A stretch of 64,000 bases of DNA from Rhodopirellula sp. P2 (GTDB lineage Bacteria; Planctomycetota; Planctomycetia; Pirellulales; Pirellulaceae). The stretch's first letter is position 1. Each line of letters starts with the position of its first letter. The notes under the pieces were generated by a model that made no database searches, had not been told where the DNA came from, and saw nothing but the letters and a program-made list of their open reading frames with translations. A program made the position numbers and the translations under genes. The stretch is taken from positions 1,178,001-1,242,000 of the forward strand of contig NZ_CP118225.1 in assembly GCF_028768465.1 (NCBI RefSeq), read 5' to 3'. Below are positions 41,435 through 48,912 of this stretch, piece after piece.

Positions 41435-41665
41435 GGTTGTGAAAACCCAGGTGAGATCGAGGCGAGACCGCACCAGCTTAGTCACCTCAGCGAACCACCT
41501 TCAAGCGACAGCCGAGAATCCGGGGTAGGGGAGCGTTTGGCGAATCTACCGCCCGTTTTGGTCTGTTTCTCCTCCGATATGATCGACCATCTCGGGGGGA
41601 TTGAACACGAAAGCAGCCGACCCTGCCGCACTGCTGCTTGGAAAAATGTCCTTGGAATCGAGCGT

Positions 41666-42589
41666 TCAGCTTGTGAATGCAATCTCGAGCGTTTCACCCG
41701 CGAGCGGATGCTTTGGATCGAGTGTTTGCAATTGCAACCGCATCGCGTTGTCTGTCAGGACGGCTTCGACCCAGCCGTTGGGACTGGTCTTGTTGAACAA
41801 GTAAGCCACTGGTGGAAGGTTGATCAGGTGGAAATGGCCGCGTTGGCTGTGAGACCATTGGTGCGAATGACCATAGAGATAGGCTTTGACATGCTTTCGG
41901 CTGTCCAGGACCTCCAGCAGCTTTTGCGTGTCGGAAATGCCGTTCCACGGCTTGCCTTCTTGGGGGGCAATGAACTGGGGGGTGTGATGCGTCATCACAA
42001 TCGCAGGCTTGTTGCTGCGGGCATCCAGTTGCTCGGCGAGCCAATCGATCTGTGCATCGCCGAGTTCCCCTGTCACCACGTTGACGCGGAACAAAGAGTC
42101 GAGCAGAAACAAATTGGCATGAGGTGTTTCGACGACGCTGACATGCTTTGACATCACCGCCGTCGCAGCAGGCCGCTGCCCGGACAGTGCATCGTAGAGC
42201 GGTTGTCGATCGTCGTGATTCCCCATCGTCAGGTGCAACGCAATCCCTGCTTGCTCGGCAGGTGCCAGGCAACGGACGAAGTTTTGATAGTCCCCGGGCA
42301 AGCCTTTCAGGTACGCACAGTCGCCATTGACGATCAAATCGGACGGTCGCGTTTTTCGCGTGAGGACTTCACCGATCACCCGTTGCAGGTTCTCGGTCAT
42401 GTTCGTTCCACGTGCTGTCACGTCGGGCGAACTGGGGATGTGAGTGTCCGAGAGCAGGGCGAGCACGGTGGCATTGTCGCTGGCAGCGGAGGCCGTTTGC
42501 GTTGCTGACATCAGCAACGCGGTGCCACCTCCGATGGTTGTGGTTTTTAGAAATCCGCGACGAGATTGGGGGATTTGATGGATGGGCAC
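41666..42589 (-). CDS. Metallophosphoesterase with Tat signal
   Basis: The gene starts with a GTG at 42589 preceded by GGAG. The 307-residue protein has a twin-arginine signal (QSRRGFLKTTTIGGGTALLM). Calcineurin-type metal-binding motifs follow in order: LLSDTHIPSSP, IVNGDCAYLKGL, TMGNHDDRQPLYD, VMTHHTPQFIAP and AYLYGHSHQW. It is exported folded and probably hydrolyses a phosphate ester or cyclic nucleotide outside the cytoplasm. It is 231 bp from the S15 gene and 180 bp from the glycosidase-like gene, all on the minus strand. Confidence 0.92.
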   Translation of the reverse strand: MPIHQIPQSRRGFLKTTTIGGGTALLMSATQTASAASDNATVLALLSDTHIPSSPDVTARGTNMTENLQRVIGEVLTRKTRPSDLIVNGDCAYLKGLPGDYQNFVRCLAPAEQAGIALHLTMGNHDDRQPLYDALSGQRPAATAVMSKHVSVVETPHANLFLLDSLFRVNVVTGELGDAQIDWLAEQLDARSNKPAIVMTHHTPQFIAPQEGKPWNGISDTQKLLEVLDSRKHVKAYLYGHSHQWSHSQRGHFHLINLPPVAYLFNKTSPNGWVEAVLTDNAMRLQLQTLDPKHPLAGETLEIAFTS

Positions 42590-42769
42590 GAGACGACTCC
42601 GGTGGGAAATGGGGTGGGATTCACGCCCATCTTACTTCATGGCCTCACACGACGGTCTTGCGCATCGCCATGAGATTGTTCAACACACGAGTCGATGACC
42701 AGATGAATTCCCTCTGTCACCTCAGCTGTTTTTCTTTTCCTCGACACAGGGACGGCACGAAAGAATGGA

Positions 42770-44209
42770 TCAATGTGCAACGATGGCAGCCACCCAGTTT
42801 TGTTTGCTGGGGGCCTTCAGCGTCGCGCGGCTGCCGCTGGCGAGTGGCTGCTTTGCTCCGAACTCCCCGGTGTCAATGTTGATCCACTGCAGGGACATTG
42901 GACTCTTGGCGTCGGAAAGATCGAGTTGAACTTCACCACCCAGTGGAAGGTAGACGGCGCAAGCGGAACCGGTGTTGGCTGCTGCGTAGGCTTCGTTTTC
43001 GTCGCGGTCTGACAGCAACTGATTCTTCGGCTCAATCGACCACAGAGGCACGAGCGATTCCAGTTTGCGAGCCGCTCGGAGACAGGCAACTGCTTTGTCG
43101 TTCAGTCCCAGACCACTGTCGGGGCGGTGAAATCGCATGGAGGCAGCACCCGCCAAAAGGTGTCTCCAGAATCGTTCGATTGCATCCTGGTCCTTGTGCC
43201 CAAATTTGTTGCCATCGGCTCCGTAGGTTTTGGTGGTGTTGATCGGTCTTGGTTGAGTGGAAAGGTATTCCCGCACATCCAGGAAATTGTCCCAGTGTTT
43301 CTGGCCTTTGTTGTGGTTGTTCTGGGAGATGTCCACAAAGTCATAGAGTTCCGGATGATCAAACGTTCGTTTGTGACGTTCGGCGTTCAGGTTCCAATCG
43401 TCCCACATTTCAGTGAGATAGATTTTCTTGCCTTCCTTCGCAGCCCGCTGTTTGATGAAGTTCGCCCAGTACCGACTCCATTCTTCTTCGCCATTGGTTT
43501 CATTGTCGATGCAATAGAGGACGTGATCGAACGGCAACGAATGCTCGAGCAGTTGATTGACGAAGCGTTTCTGGAAACGAAGGATGGTTGAGTTGTTTCG
43601 CTGCTTGGGCGTTGTGAAGAAAAACGGTTGTTTGTTGGCACCTGGATGATCGGGGTAGCGTTTTGCGAACCCTGATTCTTCGTAGGTGTAATTGACATTG
43701 TTCACTGGGTTGTACGGATGGACTTGCCAGCGATCACTGTCACGATTGTCCGTGTAGTCGAAGCGGTCCCAAATCTCGATCTGCACAAAAATGTTTCGTT
43801 CCGCAGTCGCGGTCAGCATTCGATCCAACCGCAGCCAGTATTCTTCGTTCCACTCGTTGAGGTCGTACTTTCCGTTCTCAAGTTGCTTGAACGGGTAGAC
43901 CTCAAAGTCCTTGTCATTTCGATCGCTCATCGTGTTGCGAATCACGTTCCCACCGGCTGCGGCGAGGCGGTCGAGTTGGGCCTGGAGTTCATCTTCCGGC
44001 CACTGGAACAAGTTGTCATCGTCACTGCCGCCCAACATCAACACGGGCTCGCCGTGGTAGCTCCAATACCAAGGGTTCTCGGCCCACGGACGCAGTGGTT
44101 CGTCAGCGAGTGTGGTGCCGCTGAGAACGGCGCAGAGCAGGGCTGAAAGAGTCACCGTGTGTACAATGGAAGCCGAAGCCAATTTGGCGAGTGTGTGCCT
44201 GATAGCCAT
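42770..44209 (-). CDS. Secreted glycoside-hydrolase-like TIM-barrel protein
   Basis: From the ATG at 44209 the protein has 479 residues with a signal peptide (LASASIVHTVTLSALLCAVL). It begins after the signal with LRPWAENPWYWSYHGEPVLM, followed by an (alpha/beta) barrel pattern: GGNVIRNTMSDRNDKDFEVY, NIFVQIEIWDRFDYTDN, FDHVLYCIDNETNGEEEWSR, KIYLTEMWDDWNLN and LYDFVDISQNNHN. The Glu residues in the NETNGEEE and LTEMW stretches are candidates for catalysis. The C-terminal 110 residues form a beta domain. The family could not be named with confidence; the layout resembles unclassified barrel glycosidases. It lies 67 bp behind the rhomboid gene on the same strand. Confidence 0.82.
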   Translation of the reverse strand: MAIRHTLAKLASASIVHTVTLSALLCAVLSGTTLADEPLRPWAENPWYWSYHGEPVLMLGGSDDDNLFQWPEDELQAQLDRLAAAGGNVIRNTMSDRNDKDFEVYPFKQLENGKYDLNEWNEEYWLRLDRMLTATAERNIFVQIEIWDRFDYTDNRDSDRWQVHPYNPVNNVNYTYEESGFAKRYPDHPGANKQPFFFTTPKQRNNSTILRFQKRFVNQLLEHSLPFDHVLYCIDNETNGEEEWSRYWANFIKQRAAKEGKKIYLTEMWDDWNLNAERHKRTFDHPELYDFVDISQNNHNKGQKHWDNFLDVREYLSTQPRPINTTKTYGADGNKFGHKDQDAIERFWRHLLAGAASMRFHRPDSGLGLNDKAVACLRAARKLESLVPLWSIEPKNQLLSDRDENEAYAAANTGSACAVYLPLGGEVQLDLSDAKSPMSLQWINIDTGEFGAKQPLASGSRATLKAPSKQNWVAAIVAH

Positions 44210-44276
44210 GATCTTGAGTCCGAATTGCTTGCCAACGATTGGCGTGAACGTCGAAATGAATTGCGTGAGACACCAA

Positions 44277-45083
44277 TCATAGCCGTTCGGATCGAGCCGG
44301 TTTGGCGGTTCCATTTCGTTGCTGTGGGATGGAGCCGGCAGGGGTGCCGCATGAAGTTCGCAGTGGACGAACCGTTTGAGTCCCAACGGGACGACATGTT
44401 TTTGCCACGGGTGTCTGGGGAGGACGCGTTGTTGAGAGCATCCCCAGTCCCGCAATGGCCGCTCCGATTGCAGCACCGGACAGGTGGGATTCGACCAGCG
44501 GTTGAAAACCTTCGGCGTTGACGAAGAGGATTTCTCCGGTGGTGAATTCGTAGCCAAGTTTTGCGAGGAGCAAGACTCCAGCGGCGGTCCAGAAGCACGT
44601 GAACGTGCGGTCTCGGTCGGCGAGAGATTGGCGGATTTGGATGGCGAGGAACCAAACAAACAATCCCGTGTCGATGCCGCTCAGGCCTCGATAGGTCGTG
44701 ACGTCTTGGCACGTGAGCAAGATGGTCGCGGAGATGCCGAGCGACATCGCGATGAGTGCGATGGGAAAGAGCCGAGGATTTTGTCGTTCGCAAGCGGCAC
44801 CCAAGACCGCGAACATCAGCAAGTCCCAAAACATGTGGCCGCCGCCAAAGTGGGTGAGGTGACCGGATAGAAGCCGCCACCACTGCCCGGAGGAAACGGC
44901 GGCGAAGTCGAGTTGCAACCCAGCGGTTAGGCTGGGGAAGGCGTACGCAGCGATCGCGATGACTGACATCAGCAGCGTCACTGGAAGCTGTCGGATCCAG
45001 ACGCTTCCCTGGCGGCACACCGATGGGATCGATGTGCCGTTGGTCTTGGGAAGCGTTGGGAGCAGTGATTCACCGGCGCTCAT
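44277..45083 (-). CDS. rrtA: Rhomboid protease (rhombosortase-like), coupled to VIT/vWA gene
   Basis: The 268-residue protein has about six hydrophobic segments. The serine motif GLSG lies at 133-136 (Ser135) and the partner His is at residue 200 in ESHLSGAAIGAAI. GQWWRLLSGHLTHFGGGHMF at 66-85 matches the rhomboid L1 region and the following helix. Short length and the GHLTH pattern resemble rhombosortases, which cleave proteins with a GlyGly-CTERM-type tail. Its start overlaps the stop of the VIT/vWA gene by 4 bp (ATGA), whose product ends in exactly such a tail. The C-terminal 50 residues are a polar, probably cytoplasmic tail. The symbol rrtA is used only by resemblance. Confidence 0.83.
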   Translation of the reverse strand: MSAGESLLPTLPKTNGTSIPSVCRQGSVWIRQLPVTLLMSVIAIAAYAFPSLTAGLQLDFAAVSSGQWWRLLSGHLTHFGGGHMFWDLLMFAVLGAACERQNPRLFPIALIAMSLGISATILLTCQDVTTYRGLSGIDTGLFVWFLAIQIRQSLADRDRTFTCFWTAAGVLLLAKLGYEFTTGEILFVNAEGFQPLVESHLSGAAIGAAIAGLGMLSTTRPPQTPVAKTCRPVGTQTVRPLRTSCGTPAGSIPQQRNGTAKPARSERL

Positions 45084-47371
45084 CGGACCACATCCTGATT
45101 GTTGCTTCGCGACTTCCGTCGACGCATCATCGCGGCCACCGCACCGCCGAGGGAAACGATCCCAGTGATCGGGCCGATTGGTCCGCCGCCTCCTCCACCG
45201 CCGCCCCCGTAGTTGCCGCCGCTCGATCGTGGTGCCGGCGAGGGTGTTGAAGCGGGCGTTGGTGTTGAGACGGTTGCCGGTGCAGAGGCGGCTGGCACAG
45301 CGGGGGTTGAGTGCGTGGATACCTGATGTCGAGGTGCTGGCTTCGCAGCGACCGATCGGCCGGCTGATTTTTGGGTCATGCCTTCAGGTGTCATGACTGG
45401 GACGGCTTCGGTGACCAGTTGTCCTTGCGGTGGTTCGGAAAGTTCTTTTTCCACCGCGATGAACGACGTGTACTGAGTCATCAGTTGATGCTTCAGTCCC
45501 AACTCAGTGATCTCGGCGCGGCCCGCAGGCGTTTCAGCTCCCACGTCACGGTTCCAGATTTGCCGAATTCGTTGGCGAGCCCAGACCGGACCGATCGAGT
45601 CATGCTCGGCTTCTTGTTTGGGAAGTTCGAGCTCCATGCCCATCTGAACAGGCTGGCCTGAGACGTTGCCCTTCAGCGTGATCGTGCCGGTGGCTGGTGT
45701 GTCGTAACGGCCCAAGACGATCAGAGGTTTGCCTGCGTACAGATCGGGAAGCCGCGAGGGAACTTGGTCTTTGACAACCAGTCCTCCCCAATCGATTTGC
45801 AAGTCGGTCATGTAAGGTTGGCTGGTCAGTTCATGGAACCGGCGAGCGATCTCCGGCGTGTTGTCTTGGTTGGTGACTTGCATTGAAAACCCGCGTCCCA
45901 TCTCGGCCGCACGGCTGATCAAGTAGTCATTGGGTGCGGCTCCGAATGCGATGGGGAACACGCGAGCATCTTGGAACTCGGGTTGTTGGAGATAACGAAG
46001 GATCGAGTGGTCGTTGCCGACGAGTGCATCGGTCATCAGGACCATGTAGCGAGGACGCGCGGATTCGTCTGACTCGCCGCCGAGTGCCAACTTGAGTGCG
46101 GGCAACAGGTTGGTTCCACCGCTGGCACGCAGACCGCGAACGAATTGCTTGGCGGATTGGATGTTCGCGTCGGTTGCCGCGATTGCATTGGGTTGGAACG
46201 CGGTCGTACGGTTGCTGAAGGCGATAACTCGGAATTCGTCGTTGGGGTTCAGGTGATCGAGCACATGATCCGCGAACAAACGCAGTTGGCTGATCGCGGG
46301 CCCGTTCATCGATCCGCTGGTGTCCAACACCAAAATCACTTCGCGAGGCATGATTTCGGTTGGTTCGATCGACCACTTGGGTTGCAACGCCAACATCACG
46401 TAACCATCTTCTGCGTCGGATTCGCGATGGGTTAGTGAAGCCAGGGTGCTGTCATCACCAGCCAAGCGATATTCGATGATGAAGTCCTTGTCTGCGATGG
46501 TGGATTGGTTCTTCAGTGTGATCGCAGCGTGGGTATCGGAGGTTTGTTGAATGTTCAGCTCATGAGTGACTGGCACGATTTGCTGAATCGGCATCGCGGC
46601 ATCGATCTTGACTGACACAAACACGTCGTTGCCGTTTCGCATGCCTTCGGGAAGGGAATCGGGGGTGATCCGCGAGGCGTCGGGGACTTGATCGGTGTCG
46701 GCTGCCCAACCGCGTCCCACGTTGGGACGGCTGACCGGGGTTCCTGGGATGTATCGCGGGCCAACAACCATGGGGAAACGGAAGACGTAGCGATCTTCGT
46801 CGATCTCCAGCGGGTGCACGTATTCGATGTGGACGGTCACCTCGCTGTTCGCTGGGATGTTGGCAACGGATTGAGAGAACACGTTGGCTCGCTCTTGTTC
46901 CAACAGTGCCGCTTTGCGACCCTCGTCGCGAGCTTGTTCGTATTCTTGCCGGGCTTCTTCTTTTCGTTTGACTTCGCCGACGATCACTCGTTCGCCGATC
47001 TGAAAGGAATAGGCGTCGACGGCGCAGTTCTCAGGCAGCGGGAACACGTACAACGCTTCCAGCCGTTCAGGATGCGGGTTCTGGAACACTTGCGAGACAC
47101 GAACACGTGCCAGCACCCCTGAGATCTCAGCTTCCACCCGAGTCTCCTTGAGCGTGAAGCTGGGGCTGGGTGCCGGCAGTTTGGCTTTGAGTTGTTCGAA
47201 ATCGTTTTCGCCGACTCGCATCTGCCCCTGCGTGACGGGCATTCCGCCGAGCACGGTGTAGCCGGCCTGTACGACGGCAGAGCAGAGGAAGGCGGAGGCC
47301 AGAACGACGACGGACGCGATCAAAGGCAATCGTGTCGATTGCATCCGATGGCCGGGGGATTGAGCGTTCAC
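45080..47371 (-). CDS. Secreted VIT/vWA protein with glycine-rich C-terminal sorting-like tail
   Basis: The protein has 763 residues from a GTG at 47371 (an ATG at 47344 is the alternative) and a signal peptide (LPLIASVVVLASAFLCSAVV). The VIT domain occupies about 60-200 (VRVSQVFQNPHPERLEALYV, ERVIVGEVKRKEEARQEYEQ). The vWA domain begins at about 340 with the MIDAS motif LVLDTSGSMNG. The end is a proline/threonine-rich stretch, then a run of nine Gly (about 723-731), a hydrophobic segment of about 19 residues (PIGPITGIVSLGGAVAAMM) and RRRKSR. This tripartite ending is that of GlyGly-CTERM-type signals. The rhomboid gene follows with a 4-bp overlap, so the protein is the likely substrate. VIT/vWA proteins bind other proteins through metal-dependent contacts. 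Confidence 0.9.
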   Translation of the reverse strand: MNAQSPGHRMQSTRLPLIASVVVLASAFLCSAVVQAGYTVLGGMPVTQGQMRVGENDFEQLKAKLPAPSPSFTLKETRVEAEISGVLARVRVSQVFQNPHPERLEALYVFPLPENCAVDAYSFQIGERVIVGEVKRKEEARQEYEQARDEGRKAALLEQERANVFSQSVANIPANSEVTVHIEYVHPLEIDEDRYVFRFPMVVGPRYIPGTPVSRPNVGRGWAADTDQVPDASRITPDSLPEGMRNGNDVFVSVKIDAAMPIQQIVPVTHELNIQQTSDTHAAITLKNQSTIADKDFIIEYRLAGDDSTLASLTHRESDAEDGYVMLALQPKWSIEPTEIMPREVILVLDTSGSMNGPAISQLRLFADHVLDHLNPNDEFRVIAFSNRTTAFQPNAIAATDANIQSAKQFVRGLRASGGTNLLPALKLALGGESDESARPRYMVLMTDALVGNDHSILRYLQQPEFQDARVFPIAFGAAPNDYLISRAAEMGRGFSMQVTNQDNTPEIARRFHELTSQPYMTDLQIDWGGLVVKDQVPSRLPDLYAGKPLIVLGRYDTPATGTITLKGNVSGQPVQMGMELELPKQEAEHDSIGPVWARQRIRQIWNRDVGAETPAGRAEITELGLKHQLMTQYTSFIAVEKELSEPPQGQLVTEAVPVMTPEGMTQKSAGRSVAAKPAPRHQVSTHSTPAVPAASAPATVSTPTPASTPSPAPRSSGGNYGGGGGGGGGPIGPITGIVSLGGAVAAMMRRRKSRSNNQDVVR

Positions 47372-47537: not shown

Positions 47538-48593
47538 TTAGGTTGACATCGAGGAAGCGTTGATTCGCCGGACGAGTTCCGCCACGGCGGGATGGGATTG
47601 ACGGTAAGACACGATTTGGATGTCGAGGCCGTGGCGGCTGTGTTGGTGGAATGCTCGCTCGATCGCGGCGAGGATCCATTTCTCCTGGTTCCCGAAAACG
47701 CCTCCGCCCAGGAGCGTCAGGTAAACGGCCCGGCTACCGGAGTTTTGCATGTTGATCACCGCAGCGGCTAGCGTGGCTTCGTAAGCCGCGTCCAGCACGA
47801 GCTTCGCGAAGTTCGCCCATTGATCAGCTGAACGCTTGGGGAATTGCCGGTCGTATGCGACTGGCAACGCTGAGCAATACGCTTGGCTGACTCGATGCTT
47901 GGCACCGCGGAGCGTGACTTCGGTTTGCCATTGTAGGCCAATTCGCAGTTCTCCGCGAAGCTCATTCAGTTCGTCCTCACTGGCCTGATGAAGCTTGGTG
48001 GTGATTTCGTTGAGCCCATCGTTGGTTGGGAAGAGGTAGCCGTTTTGCATCTCCCACAATCGGCAGCCGACATTGCCGAGTCGTTTGCCGAGGTCACTGG
48101 AACAGTCGATTTGAACCGCCGCACTTTGGCCGATTGATTTTCCAACCGGAGCAAAGTAGTTGCGGTAGATCGTGCCCGCACCGCAAGCGATCGCACACGC
48201 GGGGCCTTGAGTGGGGTCTGACTCGTAGATCTCAATCCCATGCTCGGGTGTTACCGATGGGCTGGTCATTTCCAGCAAATTGAACTGCGAGGCGACTTGG
48301 AACATCGCGTTCTCATTGGCAGGTCGAGCGTGCAGTCCGCAAGCATCCCCGACGATCTCATTTAGGGTGGAGTGCTGCGGTTCGACTTTCAAATCAAAAA
48401 CGGCTTGTCGGAGTTCTGAAAGCTTGGGTGTTTCGAGACGGCCAAATGCAATCCGTTTTCCATCGGAGCAGACGATGCAGTCACCGTCGATCGAAAGTTG
48501 TTGGCGAACCTGGGCGGGGGATTCTTCGCTGATTCCCGTCAATTGTTGAAACCACATCACGTTTTGGCTCGATGAGAGAGAGATCGACTTCAT
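47538..48593 (-). CDS. Macrodomain-like protein
   Basis: The protein has 351 residues from the ATG at 48593. The motif order fits a macrodomain/PARG-like fold: DACGLHARPANENAMFQVAS, TQGPACAIACGAGTIYRNYF (a glycine-rich phosphate loop), and the final SRAVYLTLLGGGVFGNQEKW followed by a helix AIERAFHQ. Such proteins bind ADP-ribose or related nucleotides; catalysis is unproven. It is 25 bp downstream of a small gene on the same strand. A longer frame to 48680 is possible but does not improve the N-terminus. No toxin or ADP-ribosyltransferase gene is adjacent. Confidence 0.7.
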   Translation of the reverse strand: MKSISLSSSQNVMWFQQLTGISEESPAQVRQQLSIDGDCIVCSDGKRIAFGRLETPKLSELRQAVFDLKVEPQHSTLNEIVGDACGLHARPANENAMFQVASQFNLLEMTSPSVTPEHGIEIYESDPTQGPACAIACGAGTIYRNYFAPVGKSIGQSAAVQIDCSSDLGKRLGNVGCRLWEMQNGYLFPTNDGLNEITTKLHQASEDELNELRGELRIGLQWQTEVTLRGAKHRVSQAYCSALPVAYDRQFPKRSADQWANFAKLVLDAAYEATLAAAVINMQNSGSRAVYLTLLGGGVFGNQEKWILAAIERAFHQHSRHGLDIQIVSYRQSHPAVAELVRRINASSMST

Positions 48594-48618
48594 TCCAGTC
48601 ACGCTAATGAGCAATGAT

Positions 48619-48912
48619 TCAATCACACGTGGATCGGTGAGCCATCGCAATCGTTTTTTTGTCCATGTGCCCCTGCTCACCCTGCCGATTTGTTTCGCGG
48701 CAGCGAGTCGTTCTGCGGTGATTCAGCTTTCTTAGAATGCCCTTCAAACCAGGTTCGGGTGGTTCTGGAATCGGAAAGGTCTCACAGTACAAAACTTGAA
48801 GCTCTGAATCGGGATGTTTGCAGTAAGCTTCCTCGATCAGGTACCGTCGTCCCTTTTCAACATTCTTTTCTTGGAGGGCAATGAATTTTTGGTGTCGTTC
48901 GCTTCTTGACAT
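48619..48912 (-). CDS. Small unknown protein
   Basis: This 97-residue frame is preceded by AGGAG with a 7-bp gap, the best ribosome-binding site in the region. The first 55 residues (MSRSERHQKFIALQEKNVEK, then CKHPDSELQVLYCETFPIPE) look protein-like; the last 40 are basic with few hydrophobic residues, as if the true end were elsewhere. It may be translated together with the macrodomain-like gene 25 bp downstream. Function unknown. Confidence 0.5.
   Translation of the reverse strand: MSRSERHQKFIALQEKNVEKGRRYLIEEAYCKHPDSELQVLYCETFPIPEPPEPGLKGILRKLNHRRTTRCRETNRQGEQGHMDKKTIAMAHRSTCD

Follow-up and report, generated by a model that had tools for sequence, protein, structure and literature searches.

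A VIT/vWA surface protein and a rhombosortase-type rhomboid protease, encoded by overlapping genes in Rhodopirellula sp. P2, very likely form a one-to-one sorting pair, and comparison with related genomes supports a protease that is dedicated to one tailed substrate. The window is the whole 64,000-nucleotide stretch of NZ_CP118225.1 that was analysed, from a host genome of 7.29 Mb, and all coordinates are positions in it. The features of the pair are listed below.

45080..47371, minus strand: VIT/vWA surface protein, the predicted substrate, 763 aa (frames, PF08487, PF00092, TIGR03788)
45182..45208, minus strand: nine-glycine run, the expected cleavage region (last three Gly invariant in an alignment of 29 tails)
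45125..45181, minus strand: 19-residue hydrophobic segment PIGPITGIVSLGGAVAAMM (in the 29 tails, the Ile of PIGP and its second Pro hardly vary)
45107..45124, minus strand: basic cluster RRRKSR, followed by eight more residues (sequence)
45080..45083, minus strand: ATGA, the 4-bp stop/start overlap of the VIT/vWA and rhomboid genes (sequence)
44277..45083, minus strand: rhombosortase-type rhomboid protease, 268 aa (TIGR03902, AlphaFold2, GlpG structure match)
44823..44825, minus strand: Asp87 (aligned to GlpG Asn154)
44667..44681, minus strand: active-site stretch Ser135-Gly-Ile-Asp138-Thr139 (aligned to GlpG S201-G-V-V204-Y205)
44484..44486, minus strand: catalytic His200 (aligned to the GlpG TM6 AH motif, H254)

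The VIT/vWA Protein and Its Tail

The VIT/vWA protein features an N-terminus that is signal-peptide-like by eye, a VIT domain at residues 74-184, and a vWA domain at residues 345-509. It scores 134.4 bits against PF08487, 42.6 bits against PF00092, and 538.7 bits against TIGR03788, just under the 551.65-bit cut-off of the latter. TIGR03788 is a marine proteobacterial sortase target, paired with sortase TIGR03784; this system resembles the host pair in its homologous VIT/vWA ectodomain and its dedicated neighbouring enzyme, but it features an LPXTG tail and a sortase whereas the host tail is GlyGly-like. No LPXTG was seen in the host tail when read by eye, and the host genome has no match to the sortase family PF04203. 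VIT/vWA proteins with GlyGly-CTERM (Fig. 3C legend), PEP-CTERM, or LPXTG tails have been described (PMC3237569).

The nine glycines, the 19-residue hydrophobic stretch, and RRRKSR, reported in an earlier note on this DNA, are all located at 45107-45208. The tail reads SSGGNY-G9-PIGPITGIVSLGGAVAAMM-RRRKSR-SNNQDVVR; the final eight residues, SNNQDVVR, were absent from that note. The tail follows the tripartite GlyGly-CTERM layout of a Gly motif, a TM segment, and a C-terminal basic cluster. It runs 14 residues past the hydrophobic stretch, as compared with the zero to five residues past the TM helix given for GlyGly-CTERM in the main description of that family (PMC3237569), and this length counts against a sorting pair. 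The general GlyGly-CTERM model, TIGR03501, misses the tail at E ≤ 10 in the host genome, and it is absent among the 14 families matched by the 29 tails at E ≤ 1. TIGR03867 (MprA_tail, a GlyGly-CTERM variant) matches 17 of the 29 tails at E ≤ 1, with a best value of 4e-7, and the host tail itself has no family match at E ≤ 1 in this comparison. The aligned tails point to a motif, GGG[AP]IxP, that is missed by the general model and looks new as far as seen.

The TIGR03501 miss also counts against a sorting pair, and it favors a reading in which the rhomboid is a general, GlpG-like housekeeping enzyme that neighbors the VIT/vWA protein by chance, with the tail as a permanent anchor. Gly-rich linkers ahead of C-terminal TM helices are common, which favors the same reading. 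The profile scores and the co-occurrence data described below make it very unlikely.

A tail model of 34 positions was built from 27 tails, including the host's own. With this model, which favors protease-adjacent tails because it was built from tails found beside the protease (a further point against a sorting pair), the VIT/vWA tail is detected in the host genome at E 1.5e-11 and the next-best match is partial, at E 0.62. The earlier note proposed a search for other tails with a glycine run, a hydrophobic stretch, and Arg residues, and the VIT/vWA tail is the sole one in the genome. A tail that serves as a general anchor on many proteins is rejected for the host genome, which has one tail.

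The Rhomboid Protease

The 4-bp ATGA overlap between the VIT/vWA stop and the rhomboid start, noticed earlier, is present at 45080-45083. The profile search that had been suggested places the rhomboid well above the curated TIGR03902 (rhombosortase) cut-off, with 135-136.2 bits against 84, and in the host genome it alone exceeds this cut-off. The other three matches in the host genome lie far below it, at 21-44 bits, and the rhomboid scores 28.8 bits against the GlpG model TIGR04239, which has a cut-off of 250. Both results argue against a housekeeping rhomboid. The WRxxS/T motif of rhombosortases is present as W69-R-L-L-S73, and the AHxxGxxxG motif is present as SHLSGAAIG, in which Ser replaces the Ala. 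The two catalytic positions of a rhomboid are filled by Ser135 and His200, as had been noted, and both are invariant in alignments of 30 and 58 sequences (the host's included).

An AlphaFold2 model made from 58 sequences (mean pLDDT 86, pTM 0.77) predicts a rhomboid core to about residue 218 and a low-confidence tail beyond. Structure searches with this model return GlpG first, followed by iRhom and Derlin of the rhomboid superfamily; the best match is GlpG 5f5k (Z 20.3, rmsd 2.3, 165 residues). The host enzyme resembles E. coli GlpG in its rhomboid fold and Ser-His catalytic pair and differs at GlpG Asn154, Val204, and Tyr205, which align with Asp, Asp, and Thr.

Co-Occurrence of Tail and Protease

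A sample of 149 genomes of the host's family was analyzed. TIGR03902 is above the cut-off in 24 of these; five more genomes, in which it falls just below the cut-off beside a VIT/vWA gene, were added after the loci were read. With up to 52 candidates per genome scored, the tail is found at E 1.5e-11 or better in 28 genomes; of the 34 genomes with a match at E ≤ 0.01, the other 6 have only weak and partial ones (1.2e-4 to 0.0096) and were not counted. Tail and protease occur together in 27 genomes, protease only in 2, tail only in 1, and neither in 119 (Fisher p 3e-26, genome kinship ignored). With protease calls by cut-off only, the counts are 22, 2, 6, and 119 (p 8e-19, genome kinship again ignored). 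The three exceptions feature a protease at a contig end (G101), a divergent Gly tail (G009), and a contig that stops about 20 bp past the tailed gene (G128). Each tail-bearing family genome has one tail save G131, which has two tails and two proteases, and three of the six genomes of the host genus have neither the tail nor an above-cut-off protease.

The VIT/vWA gene adjoins the protease in 29 of 31 family loci. A VIT/vWA search matched 62 of the 149 genomes, and among the best 30 loci, which were read, 18 are from genomes without a detected protease (16 frames read to the stop and two open, with the other copy of G128 included); no such tail was seen in any of these. It is also missing from the second VIT/vWA copies of G024 (whose frame stays open in the locus) and G084, two genomes that do have the protease. 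This exclusive co-occurrence argues against a housekeeping rhomboid, and the absence of co-occurring tails in related genomes, raised earlier as a possible refutation, is not what was found. The host pair has the rhombosortase trait of co-occurring with a GlyGly-type tail that is adjacent when it is the only one.

The earlier note described a dedicated protease-substrate pair that would extend the system to planctomycetes. The dedication stands, given the sole TIGR03902 gene, the sole tail, and the family co-occurrence. The extension does not, because Rhodopirellula baltica SH 1 was already listed with one GlyGly-CTERM protein next to a rhombosortase in Table 3 of Haft and Varghese in 2011 (PMC3237569). 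As a prediction, the planctomycete pair is thus prior art. The entries of Table 3 are identified by GI numbers only, and we infer that the one for R. baltica is the VIT/vWA gene; genome G130 carries the pair (94% DNA identity over 3.0 kb) and has no other tail and no other above-cut-off protease.

Distribution of the Pair

A set of 57 named loci was retrieved with the peptide pattern YRGLSG[IL]DT, which all of them therefore carry. These are from Rhodopirellula, Neorhodopirellula, Stieleria, Rubripirellula, Roseimaritima, Mariniblastus, Fuerstiella, and other planctomycete records, and they include five verrucomicrobial records and one titled only 'bacterium'. The VIT/vWA gene is directly upstream of the protease in 51 of the 57, and in the other six the protease frame starts within 300 bp of the contig end. 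Plasmid-borne near copies were looked for and none was found.

Across the host's phylum, TIGR03902 is above the cut-off in 31 of 392 genomes, and the tail model finds one tail each in 10 of the 392 (E ≤ 1e-5, up to 20 candidates scored per genome). At 30 further above-cut-off loci of the phylum, a VIT/vWA gene lies beside the protease in 24 (about 1.1 kb off in L259), another Gly-tailed ORF is present in three (L252, L255, and L262), two are near a contig start (L248 and L264), and one, L257, has neither and fits the profile poorly. Eight loci below the cut-off were also read. Four have VIT/vWA genes (L265, L267, L271, and L272), two have other tailed ORFs alongside (L268 and L269), and in two, L266 and L270 (the latter at a contig start), neither was seen.

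The rhombosortases of L252, L255, L268, and L262 lie beside Gly-tailed ORFs of 316-372 aa without a Pfam family above cut-off, which are possibly other dedicated substrates. In another planctomycete locus (L269 1-2889; genome G465, contig 138), a Gly-tailed M12 (reprolysin-like) metalloprotease adjoins a Tyr-type rhombosortase, and a second pair on another contig of this genome (L237) is Asp-Ser-type. A Variovorax plasmid (L197 4617-7373) encodes a protein that is xylanase-like by eye and has a GlyGly-type tail; its gene and that of a Tyr-type rhombosortase are convergent.

The Flanking Genes

The next gene starts with an ATG at 44209 on the same strand, 67 bp past the rhomboid stop. Its product was described earlier as a secreted glycosidase-like protein, which agrees with a start that is signal-peptide-like by eye and a weak likeness to apiosidases (20.5 bits against PF13204, below the cut-off of 26.5, and 23.1 bits against PF12904, with a cut-off of 22). 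The strand and spacing favor a three-gene surface module that includes this apiosidase-like protein, as the earlier note had proposed. Against it, tblastn finds this glycosidase beside the pair in 0 of 86 loci, many of them short, and the four glycosidase matches obtained fall inside the rhomboid gene, which the long glycosidase frame overlaps. Additionally, the stretch 41611-44461 is missing at this place from G130 and G141, which belong to the host genus and have both the pair and the flank near 39.6-41.5 kb. A conserved three-gene module is therefore not supported and is extremely improbable.

The stretch 41611-44461 holds a Tat-signal metallophosphoesterase gene and the apiosidase-like gene; the phosphoesterase part has a match on a different contig in G141, and the glycosidase part is matched elsewhere in G091. 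On the other side of the pair, 47538-48680 encodes a 380-aa protein with no Pfam or NCBIfam match at E ≤ 1, which was not found beside the pair in the 86 loci.

The Active-Site Variant

The rhombosortase hallmark is SGxxH, with a His four residues past the catalytic Ser in 'virtually all' members, according to the family description (PMC3237569). The host rhomboid has Thr139 at this +4 position; the lack of the hallmark His counts against a sorting pair, and SGxxH is a typical feature rather than a curated criterion. The Shewanella and Acinetobacter rhombosortases that were read feature SGxLH, unlike the host enzyme. Four aligned proteobacterial rows have LH, LH, LY, and NY at +3/+4, and a Burkholderia enzyme that was read but dropped from the alignment has VY.

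A set of 66 planctomycete loci was picked by model score and includes 13 that fall just short of the cut-off. Of the 66, 48 carry an Asp at +3 (29 DT, 18 DS, and 1 DC), 10 have Ala or Gly followed by Thr, Ser, or Cys, and 8 have His, Tyr, or Asn at +4. Five verrucomicrobial enzymes carry SG-x-D-[T/S] in loci that were retrieved by the pattern YRGLSG[IL]DT. The position of GlpG Asn154 is Asp in 43, Asn in 3, and Ser in 2 of the 48 Asp-type enzymes, and it is Asn in the four proteobacterial rows. Lys175 and Glu179 are invariant in the 48 and look like rhombosortase features, since 9 and 10 of the 12 His/Tyr-class enzymes have them as well. These alignments show a conserved variant of the active site, SGxD[TS] in place of SGxxH or SGxxY, in most of the planctomycete rhombosortases read; it appears not to have been described so far. 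The signature and the GGG[AP]IxP motif were not seen in the text of PMC3237569, whose Supplemental Figure S1 may show the residues, and a literature search of open-access main texts turned up neither planctomycete rhombosortase experiments nor the SGxD[TS] form.

Enzymes with a small +4 residue form one clade with support of 96/89 when all columns are used. The same clade has an SH-aLRT of only 50 when residues 130-142 are left out, and so a single origin is no more than possible. An exclusive tie of SGxD[TS] to VIT/vWA substrates is rejected, given that the His-type enzymes of L254 and L261 are also beside VIT/vWA genes; it is further contradicted by L252, L255, L262, and L268, which have other tailed proteins.

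It is doubtful, yet conceivable, that a rebuilt active site sets most planctomycete and the verrucomicrobial rhombosortases apart as an enzyme type of their own, in which ligase-like action could be favored over hydrolysis. If true, a small Thr/Ser would replace the aromatic residue or His that supports the catalytic His in other rhomboids, joined by the Asp three residues past the Ser (GlpG Val204, S2' pocket) and the usual Asp at the Asn154 position. Such changes could produce a Ser-His-Asp arrangement within the membrane or a pocket that suits the conserved [AP]IxP of the single substrate, and they could favor passing the cleaved Gly end on to an amine.

Possible Exchange of the Surface Domain

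The ectodomains of 26 of the 29 family pairs fall into two classes, one host-like (67-97% identical to the host's) and one only 23-27% identical to it. The proteases of the nearest second-class loci (L049, L051, L052, and L059) are 46-52% identical to the host enzyme, and in the protease tree L054, which has a host-like ectodomain, groups with second-class L051 and L052 at 99/92. These comparisons suggest that the protease and the tail design may persist while the surface domain is exchanged. G131 holds two pairs, L051 and L054, one per VIT/vWA class. Fine-scale tail similarity tracks the ectodomain and not the protease in the 26 pairs (partial Mantel r 0.112, 155 of 2000 permutations as high). 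There is thus no sign of residue-level tail-enzyme co-evolution, which is a point against a sorting pair, and co-evolution beyond shared descent is not supported.

Proposed Mechanism

The closest characterized system is RssP/VesB of V. cholerae, which likewise features a rhombosortase-type rhomboid and a Gly/TM/basic tail. V. cholerae has six GlyGly-CTERM proteins (PMC6219818), whereas the host pair has one overlapping substrate gene; in genomes with several targets, these are described as lying far from the enzyme gene (PMC3237569). The RssP cut in VesB falls after a Gly of the GlyGly motif, and VesB is reported to carry a glycerophosphoethanolamine-type modification (PMC6219818, PMC11389362). 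VesB is found at the cell surface (PMC6219818).

In the proposed sorting pair, a signal peptide would direct export of the VIT/vWA protein, and the C-terminal Gly/TM/Arg tail would keep it in the inner membrane. By analogy with RssP, the rhombosortase probably cleaves this tail at its Gly run, just before the conserved [AP]IxP, which would remove the membrane anchor. V204 and Y205 of GlpG help form the S2' pocket (PMC3690538), and a cut after the last Gly would place the nearly invariant Ile at P2', facing this pocket. More tentatively, and again by analogy with VesB, a phosphoethanolamine lipid might be attached to the exposed C-terminal Gly; the protein might then travel to the cell surface and bind ligands there through its vWA domain. 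A GspD-type secretin in the host genome reaches its cut-off (353 bits summed against 351.35) and counts in favor of the sorting pair.

A less likely reading, with an appreciable chance of being right, departs from the sorting pair in the later steps only: the protease would be a release switch (sheddase) that cuts the anchored VIT/vWA protein under some conditions, with no lipid attachment. Regulated release was raised in the discussion of Haft and Varghese (PMC3237569), and the modification and surface location of VesB (PMC6219818) argue against it.

Implications

With exactly one substrate, encoded by an overlapping gene, the pair is a simpler test bed for rhombosortase target choice and processing than Vibrio with its six substrates. 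As a natural variant (N154D, V204D, and Y205T relative to GlpG, by alignment), the enzyme could reveal the residues that distinguish sorting enzymes from ordinary rhomboid proteases. It could also help to settle whether the lipid is attached by rhombosortase itself, a point that the 2018 Vibrio paper left undecided (PMC6219818).
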